64,000 bases of DNA, taken from the NCBI RefSeq assembly GCF_000158195.2, contig NZ_GL987994.1, forward strand, positions 678,343 to 742,342, in the 5' to 3' direction. Of the stretch, positions 57,007 to 64,000 are shown in pieces. Each line of letters starts with the position of its first letter. Positions within the stretch are counted from its first letter, which is position 1. This stretch comes from Fusobacterium mortiferum ATCC 9817 (GTDB lineage: Bacteria > Fusobacteriota > Fusobacteriia > Fusobacteriales > Fusobacteriaceae). The position numbers and the translations under genes are program-made. Under the pieces are notes generated by a model. The model was not told the origin of the DNA. It ran no database searches and saw only the letters and a program-made list of their open reading frames with translations.

Positions 57007-57057
57007 TTTAGATGAAATATAAAATATTAACTAAAAATTGTTATTAGTCAAAAAATT

Positions 57058-57103
57058 AGTCACTTTAAACTAGCTAAAATAGCTGGTTTGAGGTGGCTTT
57101 TTT
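57058..57103 (+). terminator. Intrinsic terminator after the cation ATPase
   Basis: AGTCAC-AAAC-AGCT on the left pairs with AGCT-GTTT-GTGGCT on the right, interrupted by small bulges, and is followed by TTTTTTT. Confidence 0.75.
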
Positions 57104-57312
57104 TAGAGTGATTTTATGGGCTTAGAGAGGTATATTTTTTAGCCATAGTTTTATATCAAAAAGTTTTTAAAAAGCTTTTTAGAGGTATTTTACGAGGTCG
57201 TTTTTTTAAAGAAAAAATTTGAAAATTAGAAAAAAGATAAATTAAATAAAGTTTTTGTTTAATAGAGAAGTTAAAAGAGAAAAATAAAAAAATTAGATTT
57301 TAGAAAAAATAC
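57104..57312 (+). other. Non-coding stretch before the helicase operon
   Basis: No gene seen. It has TTTTATATCAA and CTTTTTAGAGGTATTTTACGAGG, similar in order to the stretch at 18300-18345, and then a very A-rich tract leading to the promoter. Confidence 0.4.
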
Positions 57313-57341
57313 TTGACGGTCTCAGAGACCAGATGTATGAT
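57313..57341 (+). promoter_or_regulatory. Promoter with an operator palindrome in its spacer
   Basis: TTGACG at 57313-57318, 17-base spacer, TATGAT at 57336-57341. The perfect palindrome GGTCTCAGAGACC occupies 57318-57330, directly between the two elements. A repressor bound there would block polymerase. The palindrome is GC-rich compared with its surroundings. Confidence 0.75.
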
Positions 57342-57373
57342 AAGAAAAAATATAAAAGAAAGAGAGAGATAAA

Positions 57374-60300
57374 ATGATAAAATATGATATAGAATTTGTA
57401 GCTGAAATGACAAGATATACCAAAAGAAAGATAAATCAGTTGAAAGGGATATATCAAGAGGCTCGTAATGGAAAGACAGATAATCCATTACTATCTCCAA
57501 TAGAAAAGATAGTAACTTTAGATGATTTAAAATTACTATATCTCTATGATTATTATAGAAAGTTTTCTAATACTGGTGAAATAGAGCCAATAAAAAATAG
57601 AATATTTAAAGAGTTAGAGATTAGAGATGGAGATTTAGATGAGTTAGTAAAAGAGATATTAATAGAAGATGGAAAAAAGGAATATCTAAGTAGAATAGAT
57701 GCTGGAGGGACTTATCTTACTTTACTTGCTAAAGATAATTTAATTACTGATGAAGAGTTAGATAGTGATTTTATAATTGAAGATACAACAGAGATAGATG
57801 GGGAAAATGAGTGTAAAAAAGTAAAAGGAAAACAAATATTAAATAGTAGTTCTCCATTAATAGATATATTTATAGAGAGAAGTTATTATAAAAATGGACT
57901 ATTTTTAGTACAACATCCAACGGGAAATGGAAAGACTTTTGCTTTGGAAGAAACTGTGGTAAAACTTCTTGAAGATATGGAGAGATTGGAAGAAAGAAAG
58001 ATAATTATCTTAACAGGAAATAAGGTAAATAGCAAACCTATATTTAAAAATATTGAGAAGAAACTAGAGAGTAAGGGAATAGGTAAAGATAAAATACTCT
58101 ATCTAAATTCTGCTACTGAAAAATTTCAAGAGAAAGATTTTTTAGAGAAGGTTAAAAAGAATTTAGAAGAGAGAAAATATGAGAGATTTTTTAAATTGAC
58201 AAGTAAAAGTGAAAAAATTAAGGTAATGGTAAGAGATATCACTGCTTTATCTGATATAAACAGAGAGATTTATGGAAGAGAAAAATTAGTTGAAGAAGTT
58301 TTAAAGGAGCTAACTAGTTGGATAAATATATTTCTTGAAAATATAAATAAAAATCAAGTGAAATATGAAAAAATAGCTATACCAGAGTTTTATTTTGAAT
58401 TATATCCTATGCTTGATGAGAAGAATTTTGAGAAAAAAGTATATGTAATGACAATATCAAAATTTTTATATGGGTATAAAACAAAAGAGAGGACAAAGTA
58501 TTTTTATGAGGATAAAAAAAATCTGTATTTTATAGATGAGATAGATAGTAGTAAAAGTTTTTTTGTAAATTATATTCTAGATAAAAAAACACTGAGTATA
58601 AAGAATATTGTTCAAAATTATTATAAAAGATGGATTTCTACAAGAGATATGAGAGAAGCTTTTATTAGAAAAGTATATGATGTATTAAAATCTAAAGTTG
58701 GAGGAAAAGATAGCATAGTAAGTGCCAAAGAGTTAAAATTTTTAAGAGATAAAGTAAAGGAATATAGAAAGAGAGGCACAGAGTTAAATAAGATATATAA
58801 TTTGAATAAAAATTACATATACTTAGAAGAAAAAATGAATATAGATTTATTCCAAGACGATAACTATATTTTTGTAGATAAAGATAAGAATGAGATATTT
58901 TTAGATAGAAGAGAGGAGATATATGTATCTACTAAAAAAGGACAAGTAAAACTTGGAAATTTTATTGAGGATTTATATGAACATTTTTATGAGGAGTTTC
59001 ATAAAATAATTGATTTTTTCTATGAGAAATTAAAGAAGAAATTAGAAAGCGAAAGTAAGATATATCCTGATGAGGTAATATTAAAAGAGATACTTCAACA
59101 TTATCGTTTTAGTGATGAGGAGCTAGATACAATAATAAAGGAGCATCAAAACTTTTATAGATATAGAAGTAATATAAAGTTTATAAATAAAAGTGAAGGG
59201 TATAGATATATCAATATTGCAGAAGAAAATAGCGAATATTACGAAAATCAAAGAGCAATGATAAATTATTATCAGATGTTTGTAACTCCAGAGAGTATGT
59301 TGAGGGATATATGTAGAAATAATATGGTAATAGGAATTTCAGCAACAGCTCTATCTAAGACAGTAGTAGGAAATTTTAATTTAAGATATTTAGAAAATTT
59401 TTTAGGGGATAATTATTACACTTTAACTAAATCTGAAAAAAGAATCTTAAAAGAAAATTTGATGGAAATAAATCAATATGAAAAAGGTGTTAAAAGAAAA
59501 TTACACATATATGATTCTTACTCTTCAATAAGTAGTGAAAATTGTAGAGCTGAGATAGAAAAATTAGAGGGATTTGAAAATCTAAAAAGATTTATGGAAG
59601 AGAATGAAAAAGAAAATGTAGTTACTATCTTACTAAGAAAATTGAATAAAGAATATAGTGAGAGTGGAGATAAAAATAGAGATGAGGATTTGAAAAAGAG
59701 ATTGACATATAAGATTTTTGTATTTTTAAATTTTCTTTTAGATAATGACAGTAGTAGTTTAGTTTTTCTTTCAAATAGAATAGAGAGTGTAAAAGACGAG
59801 TTAAGTAAGATAATAGATGAGATGAAAAAGGAAAATGAGGAAAGAAGATTTTTACCAGAGGGATTTAAAGAGATATATTTTGAATCTTTAAATGCTAGAG
59901 GAATAGAGAAACATTTTGGAGAGCAAGAGGAAAAACTAAAAGAAAAATTAAAAGAGGAAGGGGTAAAAGTAATACTATATACAACTTATCAAAGTAGTGG
60001 TATAGGGGTAAATTTGAAATATCAGTATAATCCTCAAAAAGAAAAAGAGTTGATATATCCTGATGAAAAACTTTTTAAGAAATATAAATTTTCAAAAGAT
60101 GAGAAAGATTTTGATGAGATAGCTCTAGAGGAGAAAACTTTTTTACTTCCAGTACAAGAGAAAATAGAAAATAGAATGAGAGAGGTACTCTATATCACAC
60201 AATTAGAGGAGAGTGAAGCTATAACTTCAAAACAAAAGGCTTATATGCTAAATAGTGGAAGAGTAGACAAAAAACTTAGTGAGTATGCTACTACCAATGA

Positions 60301-61420
60301 TTATGTAGAAAATCAGATGAGTTATTTGATACAAGGATTAGGAAGAGTAAATCGTACTAAGGTAAAGAGCAAAAAGAGAAATATCTATATTACTTCAAAG
60401 ATTGAAGATACTTTGGAAAGATTTAGAAGAGATGAGAGAGATGTTATTGAGGATATGGAATTTTTATTAAGAGAAGTAGATAAAAGAATTCCAGAAGATA
60501 AAAAAGAGATAAGAGAGATAATAAAATTAAATAGAAAAGCTGAAGCATTATGGGCTAGTAATTTTTTACAAAAAATAAAAAAATATAATAGAATTATAAG
60601 AAAAAACAAAACAGTGGAGAGTATAGATAATTTAAGAGAATTAGTAAAAAATTATGAAACTTATAGGGAGTATATAGTAGCTAATCCTACAACTAATATT
60701 TCTAAGAGAAAAGATGAGTTGTATCTTGAAGTAGAAAGTCCAATAAATAGTTACTCTGTAATGGGATATAGTGGTAAAGATTTTTCAAATATAGAGTTAG
60801 GAGCAGAGGGACAATTTTCCTTTAGAGGAGCTAAATTAGATATTTTAAGTGAAATACCAGAATTAAAATCTCTCTTTGAAAAAAGAATAGGAAAATTTTA
60901 TAAAAATAGAAGAGTACTATTACCATATGTATATCAAGCTATATTTAAAGGAAAGATTGGAGAAATTATAATAGAGGAGATTTTAAAAGTTTTTGGAATG
61001 AAGTTTCTAAGTAGAGACGAGGTTATTGAAATTGGAATGTATGAAGAGTTTGATGACTTTACTCACTGTGGTTACAGTATAGATTATAAAAATTATGATT
61101 TAGATAATTTTTATAATAGAGATAAGTTATATGAGAAAATTTTAGGACAGATAGCTAGAAAAAATAACTTTATAAGCAGAGAGAGAAAATGTTTTATTAT
61201 AAACTTATTGCCACCAACAACAGATATTCCAAATGATAAATTAAGATATTATTTGATAGATAGAGAAAACTATGATACTCCAATTAGAGTAAATGATTTT
61301 GAAAGAGCAGAGATAATAGCTATTCCATCACTTTTAAAGTATGATGAAAAGAAAAAGGGAATGATAATAGATAGAGAGTTAGTAAGATTAGTAGTAAGTT
61401 ATTTGAAGGGGGATATATAG
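57374..61420 (+). CDS. Large superfamily 2 helicase with C-terminal nuclease-like domain
   Basis: 1348 residues. Helicase core: Walker A HPTGNGKT near 181-188, DEID box in YFIDEIDSSKSF near 386, SAT motif in GISATALSK near 656, YQSSGIGVN near 873, and arginine-finger motif QGLGRVNRT near 987. Long charged helical inserts lie between motifs. Residues ~1190-1270 look like a PD-(D/E)xK nuclease: GEIIIEEIL, then SIDYKNYDL (D-x-K), then KILGQIARK. It probably unwinds and cuts nucleic acid. It shares an operon with the next gene (stop and start adjacent). Not matched to a named defence family; possibly part of a mobile element or antiphage module. Confidence 0.75.
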   Translation: MIKYDIEFVAEMTRYTKRKINQLKGIYQEARNGKTDNPLLSPIEKIVTLDDLKLLYLYDYYRKFSNTGEIEPIKNRIFKELEIRDGDLDELVKEILIEDGKKEYLSRIDAGGTYLTLLAKDNLITDEELDSDFIIEDTTEIDGENECKKVKGKQILNSSSPLIDIFIERSYYKNGLFLVQHPTGNGKTFALEETVVKLLEDMERLEERKIIILTGNKVNSKPIFKNIEKKLESKGIGKDKILYLNSATEKFQEKDFLEKVKKNLEERKYERFFKLTSKSEKIKVMVRDITALSDINREIYGREKLVEEVLKELTSWINIFLENINKNQVKYEKIAIPEFYFELYPMLDEKNFEKKVYVMTISKFLYGYKTKERTKYFYEDKKNLYFIDEIDSSKSFFVNYILDKKTLSIKNIVQNYYKRWISTRDMREAFIRKVYDVLKSKVGGKDSIVSAKELKFLRDKVKEYRKRGTELNKIYNLNKNYIYLEEKMNIDLFQDDNYIFVDKDKNEIFLDRREEIYVSTKKGQVKLGNFIEDLYEHFYEEFHKIIDFFYEKLKKKLESESKIYPDEVILKEILQHYRFSDEELDTIIKEHQNFYRYRSNIKFINKSEGYRYINIAEENSEYYENQRAMINYYQMFVTPESMLRDICRNNMVIGISATALSKTVVGNFNLRYLENFLGDNYYTLTKSEKRILKENLMEINQYEKGVKRKLHIYDSYSSISSENCRAEIEKLEGFENLKRFMEENEKENVVTILLRKLNKEYSESGDKNRDEDLKKRLTYKIFVFLNFLLDNDSSSLVFLSNRIESVKDELSKIIDEMKKENEERRFLPEGFKEIYFESLNARGIEKHFGEQEEKLKEKLKEEGVKVILYTTYQSSGIGVNLKYQYNPQKEKELIYPDEKLFKKYKFSKDEKDFDEIALEEKTFLLPVQEKIENRMREVLYITQLEESEAITSKQKAYMLNSGRVDKKLSEYATTNDYVENQMSYLIQGLGRVNRTKVKSKKRNIYITSKIEDTLERFRRDERDVIEDMEFLLREVDKRIPEDKKEIREIIKLNRKAEALWASNFLQKIKKYNRIIRKNKTVESIDNLRELVKNYETYREYIVANPTTNISKRKDELYLEVESPINSYSVMGYSGKDFSNIELGAEGQFSFRGAKLDILSEIPELKSLFEKRIGKFYKNRRVLLPYVYQAIFKGKIGEIIIEEILKVFGMKFLSRDEVIEIGMYEEFDDFTHCGYSIDYKNYDLDNFYNRDKLYEKILGQIARKNNFISRERKCFIINLLPPTTDIPNDKLRYYLIDRENYDTPIRVNDFERAEIIAIPSLLKYDEKKKGMIIDRELVRLVVSYLKGDI

Positions 61421-63343
61421 ATGTTAAAATTTTATAGTGGAGAGTTTTTAGTTAAGAGAATATATTTTGATACAATATTAGAGGATTTTAAATTATTCAT
61501 TTTTTCTATCAAAGCGGAGATATTTTATGGAGAAAGTAAAGATGAAAAACAAAAGAAATTAAATAATATGTTAAAATCTTTTTATTCAAAAATAAAAAAT
61601 GAAAAAGAGATTTACAGTTTCTATGTAGATAATTTTTCAAAAAAAATTTATCTACTAGGAAGTAAAGAATGCAGTATTGATAAAGAGAAATATAAAGAGT
61701 ATATAAATAAAGTAGAAGAGATAGATGAGAAAGGAATTTTAGATATAAAGGATATAACTCTTTTCAATCTTTTTGTAAGGTATATACCCTATGAAGAATA
61801 TAGATACTATTTTCCTAAAGATAGCATAAATTTTAAAACTATTAATGATTTGATTTTTCATATAAAAACAGAGAGAGATGGAGATGTTTTGAGATGCTTA
61901 GAGTTAAAGTTAGCACGATATGGAAATAGAGATAGAAATGAGATTTGGTTGAATCAAGTTACATTTACTAAAATAGATAAAGTAAATAAAAAAGAAAAAT
62001 ATAAAAATAGTATAAAGATGGAGTATAATCATCACACTAATCTAATAATACCTAGTGATAAAGAGAGTGGACAAAATATTTATGTAAGATATAGTGGGAA
62101 AAAAGAAAATGTGATAGACTTTATACCACTAAAGAGATTTACAGAAAGAACTAGAGCAAGATATTTTACTTTTTTTATGAAAAGTGTAGAGGAAAAATTG
62201 GAAAAATATTTTGAAGTAGAATTTTCTACTTTGGAAAGTTATGAACAATTTAAATTTAGAAGAGGAGCAGGGACACATTTTACTAATTCAGTTTTTGGAA
62301 AGAGTAAAGGTGTGATAAATATATATCAAACAAAAGATGTAAAAAAGAGTGGTGAGGTGGTAGTATCTTGTAAGTTAGGAGCAGAGAGAGTAAAGAAAGA
62401 GTTAGAAGAGATTTTTAAGGAAAAGATGATAGAAAAAAATATAAAGATAAAAATAAAGGGAGAAGTAGGAAATAAAAATAGATTAAGAAATGAGGATTGG
62501 AATATATTTATATTAAATGATGCTACTGGGAAAATGTTAGAGATAGATACTTATGGGGAGATAAAGAAAAAGGGAAATATTATAAGTCAAGGAATAGGAG
62601 AAGAAAAAATAGAGAATAGTGGATTAAAAACTGTATGTAAGAAATTATTTGAGGAGATATTTATAAAAGAACAGATAAAAAGAAGAAGTATAAAAAATTT
62701 ATTGATAAATTATAAAGATTTTGTTGGAGTAAAAGTTTGGGAATATAGTACTAAGTGGGAAGAGAAAAGTAAAAAAACTATTAGAGTATTGAAGAAGATA
62801 GAGATTCTAGAAGATGGTAAATTTATATCTGAAAAAAGTAATATGGAAGATGGAAAGGATATAATTAAAGAGTTTATAGATATAGCTGAAAGTTTTGACA
62901 ATATGGGAGAGGCTATGTTAAAGAAATATAATGAAGGAAGTACAATAGACAGATTAAAAGGAGAATTAAAATTAATAGAGATAAAAGGAAATAAAATTTT
63001 AATTGAGGATACTAGCTTAAGATTATATTATGATTTTAATAAATTTGTAGAATTAAAAAGTGAAAAATTAGTTAATAGGAAAAAAGGAGAAGATGGAACT
63101 TTAAAATATATGATGAACCCTTGGTTTGACAAGGAGAGGCAATATTACTATTCATATTATTTTGGAAGTTTAGAAGAGGAAAACTTTATTTTCTCTCCCA
63201 ATATAAAAAAGTTAATATCAACTAGAAAAATAAGTGAAGAAGAGTATAAACTTTATGGAGATAGTTTAGGATTTAAATATCTAACAAGTGGAAGTAAAAT
63301 AATAGCTTATCCAATATTTTTTAAAATTTTAAAAGAGTTGTAA
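61421..63343 (+). CDS. Unknown 640-residue partner of the helicase-nuclease
   Basis: 640 residues, beginning at the base after the helicase stop, so surely co-translated with it. No signal peptide or membrane helix. Lysine-rich with alternating beta and alpha segments; notable stretches are RRGAGTHFTNSVFGKSKGVINIYQTKDVKKSGEVVVSCK near 280-320 and EYSTKWEEKSKKTIRVLKKIEI near 445. No nuclease or NTPase motif was recognised. A highly divergent PIWI- or restriction-type protein is conceivable by analogy with other helicase-linked modules, but nothing in the sequence proves it. Confidence 0.6.
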   Translation: MLKFYSGEFLVKRIYFDTILEDFKLFIFSIKAEIFYGESKDEKQKKLNNMLKSFYSKIKNEKEIYSFYVDNFSKKIYLLGSKECSIDKEKYKEYINKVEEIDEKGILDIKDITLFNLFVRYIPYEEYRYYFPKDSINFKTINDLIFHIKTERDGDVLRCLELKLARYGNRDRNEIWLNQVTFTKIDKVNKKEKYKNSIKMEYNHHTNLIIPSDKESGQNIYVRYSGKKENVIDFIPLKRFTERTRARYFTFFMKSVEEKLEKYFEVEFSTLESYEQFKFRRGAGTHFTNSVFGKSKGVINIYQTKDVKKSGEVVVSCKLGAERVKKELEEIFKEKMIEKNIKIKIKGEVGNKNRLRNEDWNIFILNDATGKMLEIDTYGEIKKKGNIISQGIGEEKIENSGLKTVCKKLFEEIFIKEQIKRRSIKNLLINYKDFVGVKVWEYSTKWEEKSKKTIRVLKKIEILEDGKFISEKSNMEDGKDIIKEFIDIAESFDNMGEAMLKKYNEGSTIDRLKGELKLIEIKGNKILIEDTSLRLYYDFNKFVELKSEKLVNRKKGEDGTLKYMMNPWFDKERQYYYSYYFGSLEEENFIFSPNIKKLISTRKISEEEYKLYGDSLGFKYLTSGSKIIAYPIFFKILKEL

Positions 63344-63356
63344 AAATATAAAACTA

Positions 63357-63385
63357 TTGATTTCATACCAAAAATATGATAAAAT
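63357..63385 (+). promoter_or_regulatory. Promoter of the ParA-like gene
   Basis: TTGATT at 63357-63362, 17-base spacer, TAAAAT at 63380-63385 with TG extended. Start near 63392, ten bases before the palindrome. Confidence 0.7.
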
Positions 63386-63401
63386 ATCTATAACAAAAAC
63401 T

Positions 63402-63433
63402 AACTAAGTCGCATGCATGCGACTTAGTTTTTT
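63402..63433 (+). promoter_or_regulatory. Perfect 28-base palindrome in the leader of the ParA-like gene
   Basis: AACTAAGTCGCATG at 63402-63415 is followed immediately by its exact reverse complement to 63429, then TTTT. As RNA it forms a terminator-like hairpin; as DNA it is a candidate binding site. It lies between promoter and ribosome site (AAAGGAG at 63437), so it must be read through or bound for the gene to be controlled. Confidence 0.8.
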
Positions 63434-63449
63434 ATAAAAGGAGTTACAA

Positions 63450-64000
63450 ATGAAAAAAAAGGTAGGACTATTTTATAAAAAAAATGGAAGTTTTAATAAT
63501 GCAGTGTTGACAATAGATAGGAGTATAACAGAGGCTCTTGATGTAAACAAAGAGGAAAATGAGATAGTTTTTTCTATGAGTAATAGAATAATTACCCTAA
63601 CTAAAGGTAGATGTGAAGATGAAGTAGAAGAAAAAGATATTCATGAAAATTTAATTAATTATAGAAAAAATGTAAGTATAAATTTTAGTAAAGTATATAA
63701 AGATAAAGATTATTATGTAGCAAAACTTAATATTCCCTTTGGTGTAGTGAATACATTAAAAATTACTAAAGAGAGTAATGATGTGAATATAACAACAGGA
63801 GATGGAATAGTTACAATAGATAGAGGGGAAAGAGTAGGAAAAGTATATACTCTAAAGGTAAATAAAGGAGGAATAGGAAAAACTTTTCTTACAGTTCAAT
63901 TAGCTCATGGACTTACAATGAAAGGGAGTAAAGTAATAATTTTAACTTCAGACTCTCAAAATAATATAATTGATTTTACAATCCCAGAGGAAAAGCAAGA
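63450..64000 (+). CDS. ParA-like ATPase, 3' end beyond the window
   Basis: 183 residues seen. Residues 1-~130 are a domain not recognised. From ~131 a deviant Walker A VNKGGIGKTFLTVQLAHGL is followed by KVIILTSDSQNN, the start of a ParA/MinD-type P-loop ATPase. Such proteins move or partition plasmids, or act in defence and conjugation modules. ATG 63450 has AAAGGAG seven bases before. It follows the helicase-nuclease unit on the same strand but has its own promoter. Confidence 0.75.
   Translation, partial: MKKKVGLFYKKNGSFNNAVLTIDRSITEALDVNKEENEIVFSMSNRIITLTKGRCEDEVEEKDIHENLINYRKNVSINFSKVYKDKDYYVAKLNIPFGVVNTLKITKESNDVNITTGDGIVTIDRGERVGKVYTLKVNKGGIGKTFLTVQLAHGLTMKGSKVIILTSDSQNNIIDFTIPEEKQ

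Follow-up and report, generated by a model that had tools for sequence, protein, structure and literature searches.

Two adjacent genes near the end of the window, the 64,000-nucleotide stretch of DNA analysed here (G000:C8:678343-742342, in a genome of 2.67 Mb), very probably form a diverged anti-plasmid operon of the DdmDE type, a reading to which we assign a probability of roughly 0.88. A preliminary description of this DNA had presented them as a candidate new module, whereas PADLOC, PDB and Foldseek matches, together with a motif of ApsB, place the pair in the known DdmDE/ApsAB anti-plasmid family. The gene layout given in that description, a helicase gene abutting a partner gene with a ParA-like gene next, was confirmed, and both open reading frames have the coordinates and lengths first reported (Table 1). 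The two genes lie head to tail with zero gap, the TAG stop codon of the helicase gene (61418-61420) being immediately followed by the ATG of the partner gene, whose ribosome-binding-like sequence AAGGGGGA sits within the 3' end of the helicase gene.

Table 1. Coordinates of the features of the locus, in positions of the window.
Feature	Position	Strand	Basis or remark
Inserted accessory cassette	57019..63343	+	blastn comparison with empty sites of G009, G010 and G011; boundaries accurate to ~20 bp
Sigma-70-like promoter TTGACG-17-TATGAT	57313..57341	+	10/12 consensus matches
Perfect 6-1-6 palindrome GGTCTCAGAGACC, putative operator	57318..57330	+	Within promoter spacer
ddmD-like SF2 helicase + PD-(D/E)xK nuclease, 1348 aa	57374..61420	+	PADLOC DdmD and PDB VcDdmD matches
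ddmD N-terminal extension, ~160-170 residues, helical	57374..57886	+	Walker A position compared among homologues
Helicase motif I QHPTGNGKT, residues 180-188	57911..57937	+	Invariant across family alignment
Helicase motif II DEID, residues 388-391	58535..58546	+	Family alignment
Helicase motif III SAT, residues 656-658	59339..59347	+	Family alignment
Helicase motif VI QGLGRVNR, residues 987-994	60332..60355	+	Homologue alignment
PD-(D/E)xK nuclease core E1197, E1224, D1227, D1237, K1239	60950..61090	+	Invariant, 8 homologues
ddmE-like Argonaute-fold partner, 640 aa (predicted)	61421..63343	+	Foldseek; linkage to DdmD in Fusobacteriaceae loci
MID-like 5'-guide-binding motif Y378-x3-K382-x7-Q390-G391...K407, putative	62552..62641	+	Homologue conservation; ApsB motif match
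Presumed start of PIWI strand 1 (G436-VKV)	62726..62737	+	Homologue alignment; strand 438-447 in model
Terminator-like hairpin between ddmE and parA	63402..63429	+	Kept in empty sites
parA, chromosomal neighbour outside the module	63450..64000, runs beyond window end	+	Conserved without the pair in relatives

Relationship of the two proteins to DdmD and DdmE

To judge from its sequence matches, the helicase-nuclease is a homologue of DdmD. Residues 350-1228 match DdmD in PADLOC (E=6.9e-16), and structures of V. cholerae DdmD are its sole significant sequence matches in the PDB (E=1.2e-19), so the helicase does match a defence family, contrary to what had been stated of both proteins. The Pfam scan returned a weak DEAD helicase alone. 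The SF2 motifs and the C-terminal PD-(D/E)xK-like site that had been described are both present: motifs I, II, III and VI are all in place in the alignment, the C-terminal GE...E..D...DxK site is intact, and the nuclease residues are invariant in eight divergent DdmD-like proteins (from Fusobacteriaceae, Nostoc, Persicobacter, Rudanella, Salmonella and Proteus). Walker A lies at residue 184 in the window protein and at 205 in Cetobacterium, compared with 24-40 in Nostoc, Persicobacter and Salmonella, indicating that DdmD of the Fusobacteriaceae carries an extra N-terminal region. Among the homologues compared, only those of Cetobacterium share this extension, which looks HTH-like by eye. Its appearance and helix order hinted at a MerR-like winged helix, a reading that was rejected, as neither Pfam nor Foldseek gave support.

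The 640-residue partner probably has a DdmE-like Argonaute fold, as judged from a low-confidence model. Scans with Pfam, NCBIfam and PADLOC gave no significant match, phmmer and profile searches of the PDB showed no similarity to any solved DdmE, and no sequence match was found outside the Fusobacteriaceae. Likewise, nothing significant emerged when the Fusobacteriaceae partner alignment was compared by hhalign with the partners from Nostoc, Persicobacter, Rudanella and Salmonella, and a PDB match to a designed haemagglutinin stem was discarded as chance. This fast-evolving protein escapes the family models tried, and existing models catch the system via DdmD only.

The AlphaFold model of the partner, built from a three-sequence alignment, is poor (mean pLDDT 55.7). 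Searched with Foldseek against 350,542 PDB chains, it returned V. cholerae DdmE at rank 1 (E=1.2e-12, probability 1.00) and L. casei DdmE at ranks 2 and 3 (E from 1.2e-12 to 3.1e-9 over the three ranks), followed by Argonautes, with the Marinitoga Argonaute (MpAgo) at rank 4 (E=5.2e-6). The earlier hint to look for a PIWI-like fold in 61421-63343 was right. TM-scores against the DdmE structures are low (0.27), so the match reflects local structure rather than domain arrangement. The model of the DdmD N-terminus, of modest confidence, had no significant fold match in the PDB by the same method, which argues that Foldseek does not give DdmE-type matches to any weak model.

Homologues of the partner (~31% identical to the window protein) retain Y378, K382, G391 and K407, and position 390 is either Q or, as in the Cetobacterium plasmid copy, N. 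Where the first PIWI catalytic aspartate is presumed to lie, after G436, their alignment has K, S or G, suggesting an Argonaute that does not cleave.

It is also conceivable, if rather unlikely, that the pair falls on the ApsAB side of this anti-plasmid family and not on the DdmDE side, with an ApsB-type partner and the same working. One hallmark of ApsB, a Y[X]3K[X]nQG[X]nK motif that V. cholerae DdmE reportedly lacks, occurs in the partner, and in ApsA about 200 residues likewise precede Walker A, which lies at residue 218 (PMC11096173). DdmE and ApsB show no sequence similarity to each other (PMC11096173), so that its absence between the partner and DdmE is not diagnostic. However, the nearest solved folds of the partner are those of DdmE, with no ApsB structure among the matches, and the best scores of the helicase are with DdmD of Nostoc and V. 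cholerae, the set formed by Salmonella, Proteus and Rudanella scoring lower. The deep fork of the tree, in which proxies stood for ApsA, is weak (66/57).

Distribution and proposed action

Among 98 genomes from the phylum, 4 carry the pair. Far from being universal in the genus, it was missing from all 11 other same-genus genomes, and a DdmD-model search of 389 genomes recovered Fusobacteriaceae copies only. Cetobacterium somerae plasmid p6 carries the pair, as do two plasmid-like contigs that bear replication-initiator-like, MobA and ParAB genes. The order D then E, with the genes abutting or overlapping, is common to the Fusobacteriaceae loci, Nostoc, Persicobacter, Salmonella and Rudanella.

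In Cetobacterium, ddmE is followed by a conserved third gene of 231-250 aa that has no family match and is absent from the window (L015:25494-26189, L011:14064-14771 and L013:13955-14707). In Rudanella (Bacteroidota; L014:6677-10616), a DdmD-like C-terminal ORF precedes a 695-aa partner in which no similarity to that of the window could be recognised. DdmD-like genes with unrelated-looking partners are also borne by plasmids (L015, L046, L047 and L048; NZ_CP143325.1, NZ_CP117770.1, NZ_CP022016.1 and NZ_AP025303.1), their hosts being Cetobacterium, Nostoc, Salmonella and Persicobacter. Such a location suggests competition between plasmids, and on the Cetobacterium plasmids the system may serve one plasmid against another instead of protecting the host.

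From V. cholerae DdmDE and E. coli ApsAB we infer the type of guide, the recruitment step and the loss of plasmids. The partner would be an Argonaute-like protein that does not cleave; with a short DNA guide bound in its MID pocket, it would pair with multicopy plasmid DNA and then recruit DdmD, which would load on the displaced strand, move along it by means of its SF2 motor and cut with its PD-(D/E)xK domain, leading to plasmid loss. In V. cholerae, DdmE finds plasmid DNA with DNA guides and recruits DdmD, the autoinhibited DdmD dimer separates, and DdmD, after loading on the non-target strand, translocates, cleavage coming next (PMC12409362). ApsAB of E. coli depends fully on its motor residues and its MID lysine and in part on its nuclease lysine (PMC11096173); all of these residues have counterparts in the window pair.

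A primarily anti-phage or abortive-infection system was also considered, since many helicase-nucleases and short Argonautes act in that way and one Cetobacterium copy of the pair adjoins type III CRISPR genes. However, the characterised relatives target plasmids, eight phages were unaffected by ApsAB (PMC11096173), and no relative was present in phage records or in the viral contigs scanned with both proteins, making such a role improbable. Slightly less probable still is a decaying or non-functional relic: ddmD of the CRISPR-side Cetobacterium copy (L013:7987-12099) has an in-frame TGA, and that copy may be decaying, but in the window copy both frames are open, all catalytic residues are present, the promoter is good and the second gene abuts the first.

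Insertion site, parA and the promoter

The module is a ~6.3-kb insertion that ends before the terminator of parA. Aligned by blastn, the window loses homology to three relatives (G009, G010 and G011) at 57010-57043 and regains it at 63343-63345, with nothing notable between, so that in them the Ca-ATPase gene runs directly into parA. This break at both ends delimits a cassette whose whole content is the two genes and their promoter region; it includes no recombinase. G+C content drops from 29-33% to 24-27% on entering the cassette, and the parA end is low as well. The insertion and the patchy spread agree with the earlier suggestion of an accessory antiphage, plasmid-maintenance or mobile-element module insofar as it concerned a mobile accessory defence; what did not survive is its novelty.

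The inclusion of the ParA-like ATPase in the module is refuted. In the flanking contig parA is complete (363 aa), with a ParB-like gene (236 aa) next and a thiamine-biosynthesis cluster after that. Five same-genus genomes without the pair have ParA at 79-93% identity, ParB being also conserved at lower identity. The empty site is intact in the three relatives, the hairpin that separates the pair from parA is present there too, the genes upstream of parA differ in G005 and G006, and the Cetobacterium copies have no parA downstream. A three- or four-gene module in which ParA and ParB cooperate with the helicase-nuclease is hardly credible against these observations, even though the genes adjoin in the window and a Persicobacter plasmid also has parAB preceding DdmDE. 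The chromosomal ParA (L002:6793-7884) has an unusual N-terminal domain of ~130 residues before its P-loop, conserved in the genus, and many paralogues of the ParA family align only from about its residue 128.

The genome has one further copy of the ddmD promoter palindrome, GGTCTCAGAGACC, and this copy lies upstream of a 58-aa ORF. Among 98 TTGAC-18-TATNAT sites listed for the genome, only two besides that of ddmD have a GC-rich palindrome abutting TTGAC. These twin 6-1-6 palindrome promoters (L051:1496-1524 and 1441-1469; G000:C2:1096479-1096562) are adjacent to each other and lie upstream of the 58-aa ORF, which has a serine recombinase nearby. The palindrome in one of the two is that of ddmD. 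In the equivalent spacer position, the Cetobacterium copy of G049 has GGGCAACTTGCCC and the Cetobacterium plasmid copy an imperfect GCCCGGGGC. In each of three independent loci the DdmD extension is accompanied by a GC-rich spacer palindrome; two of these palindromes are perfect 6-1-6, the third is imperfect, and all differ in sequence. No obvious spacer palindrome was seen in homologues without the extension. As a speculation that we consider unlikely, the extension in the Fusobacteriaceae might be a DNA-binding domain, such that the resting autoinhibited dimer would repress its own promoter via the palindrome until plasmid engagement splits the dimer and more defence is made. The second genomic palindrome may reflect a shared regulator instead of self-repression by DdmD.

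Comparison with known anti-plasmid systems

The pair resembles DdmDE of V. cholerae (VPI-2) and L. casei in its DdmD-homologous SF2 and PD-(D/E)xK protein, in the order D then E, in a partner model whose nearest folds are VcDdmE and LcDdmE, and in the apparent loss of the presumed first PIWI aspartate. In contrast to these systems, DdmD of the window has an extra N-terminus of ~160 aa and the partner is without sequence similarity to solved DdmE, while keeping the MID-like motif reported absent from VcDdmE (PMC11096173). With ApsAB of E. coli ST38 it shares a helicase-nuclease coupled to an Argonaute-like partner with the Y[X]3K[X]nQG[X]nK motif, a likeness drawn from the description of ApsAB, as well as a long N-terminus before Walker A; however, its helicase groups away from the Salmonella, Proteus and Rudanella set, which has an ApsA-like motif VI. 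Compared with long prokaryotic Argonautes such as MpAgo, the partner has apparently lost the first catalytic aspartate of PIWI, and its gene is coupled to that of a helicase-nuclease. The system would place guided anti-plasmid defence of the DdmDE/ApsAB type in the Fusobacteriaceae, Cetobacterium plasmids included, and it combines features reported separately for DdmE (the fold) and ApsB (the MID motif), which may help to order the family.
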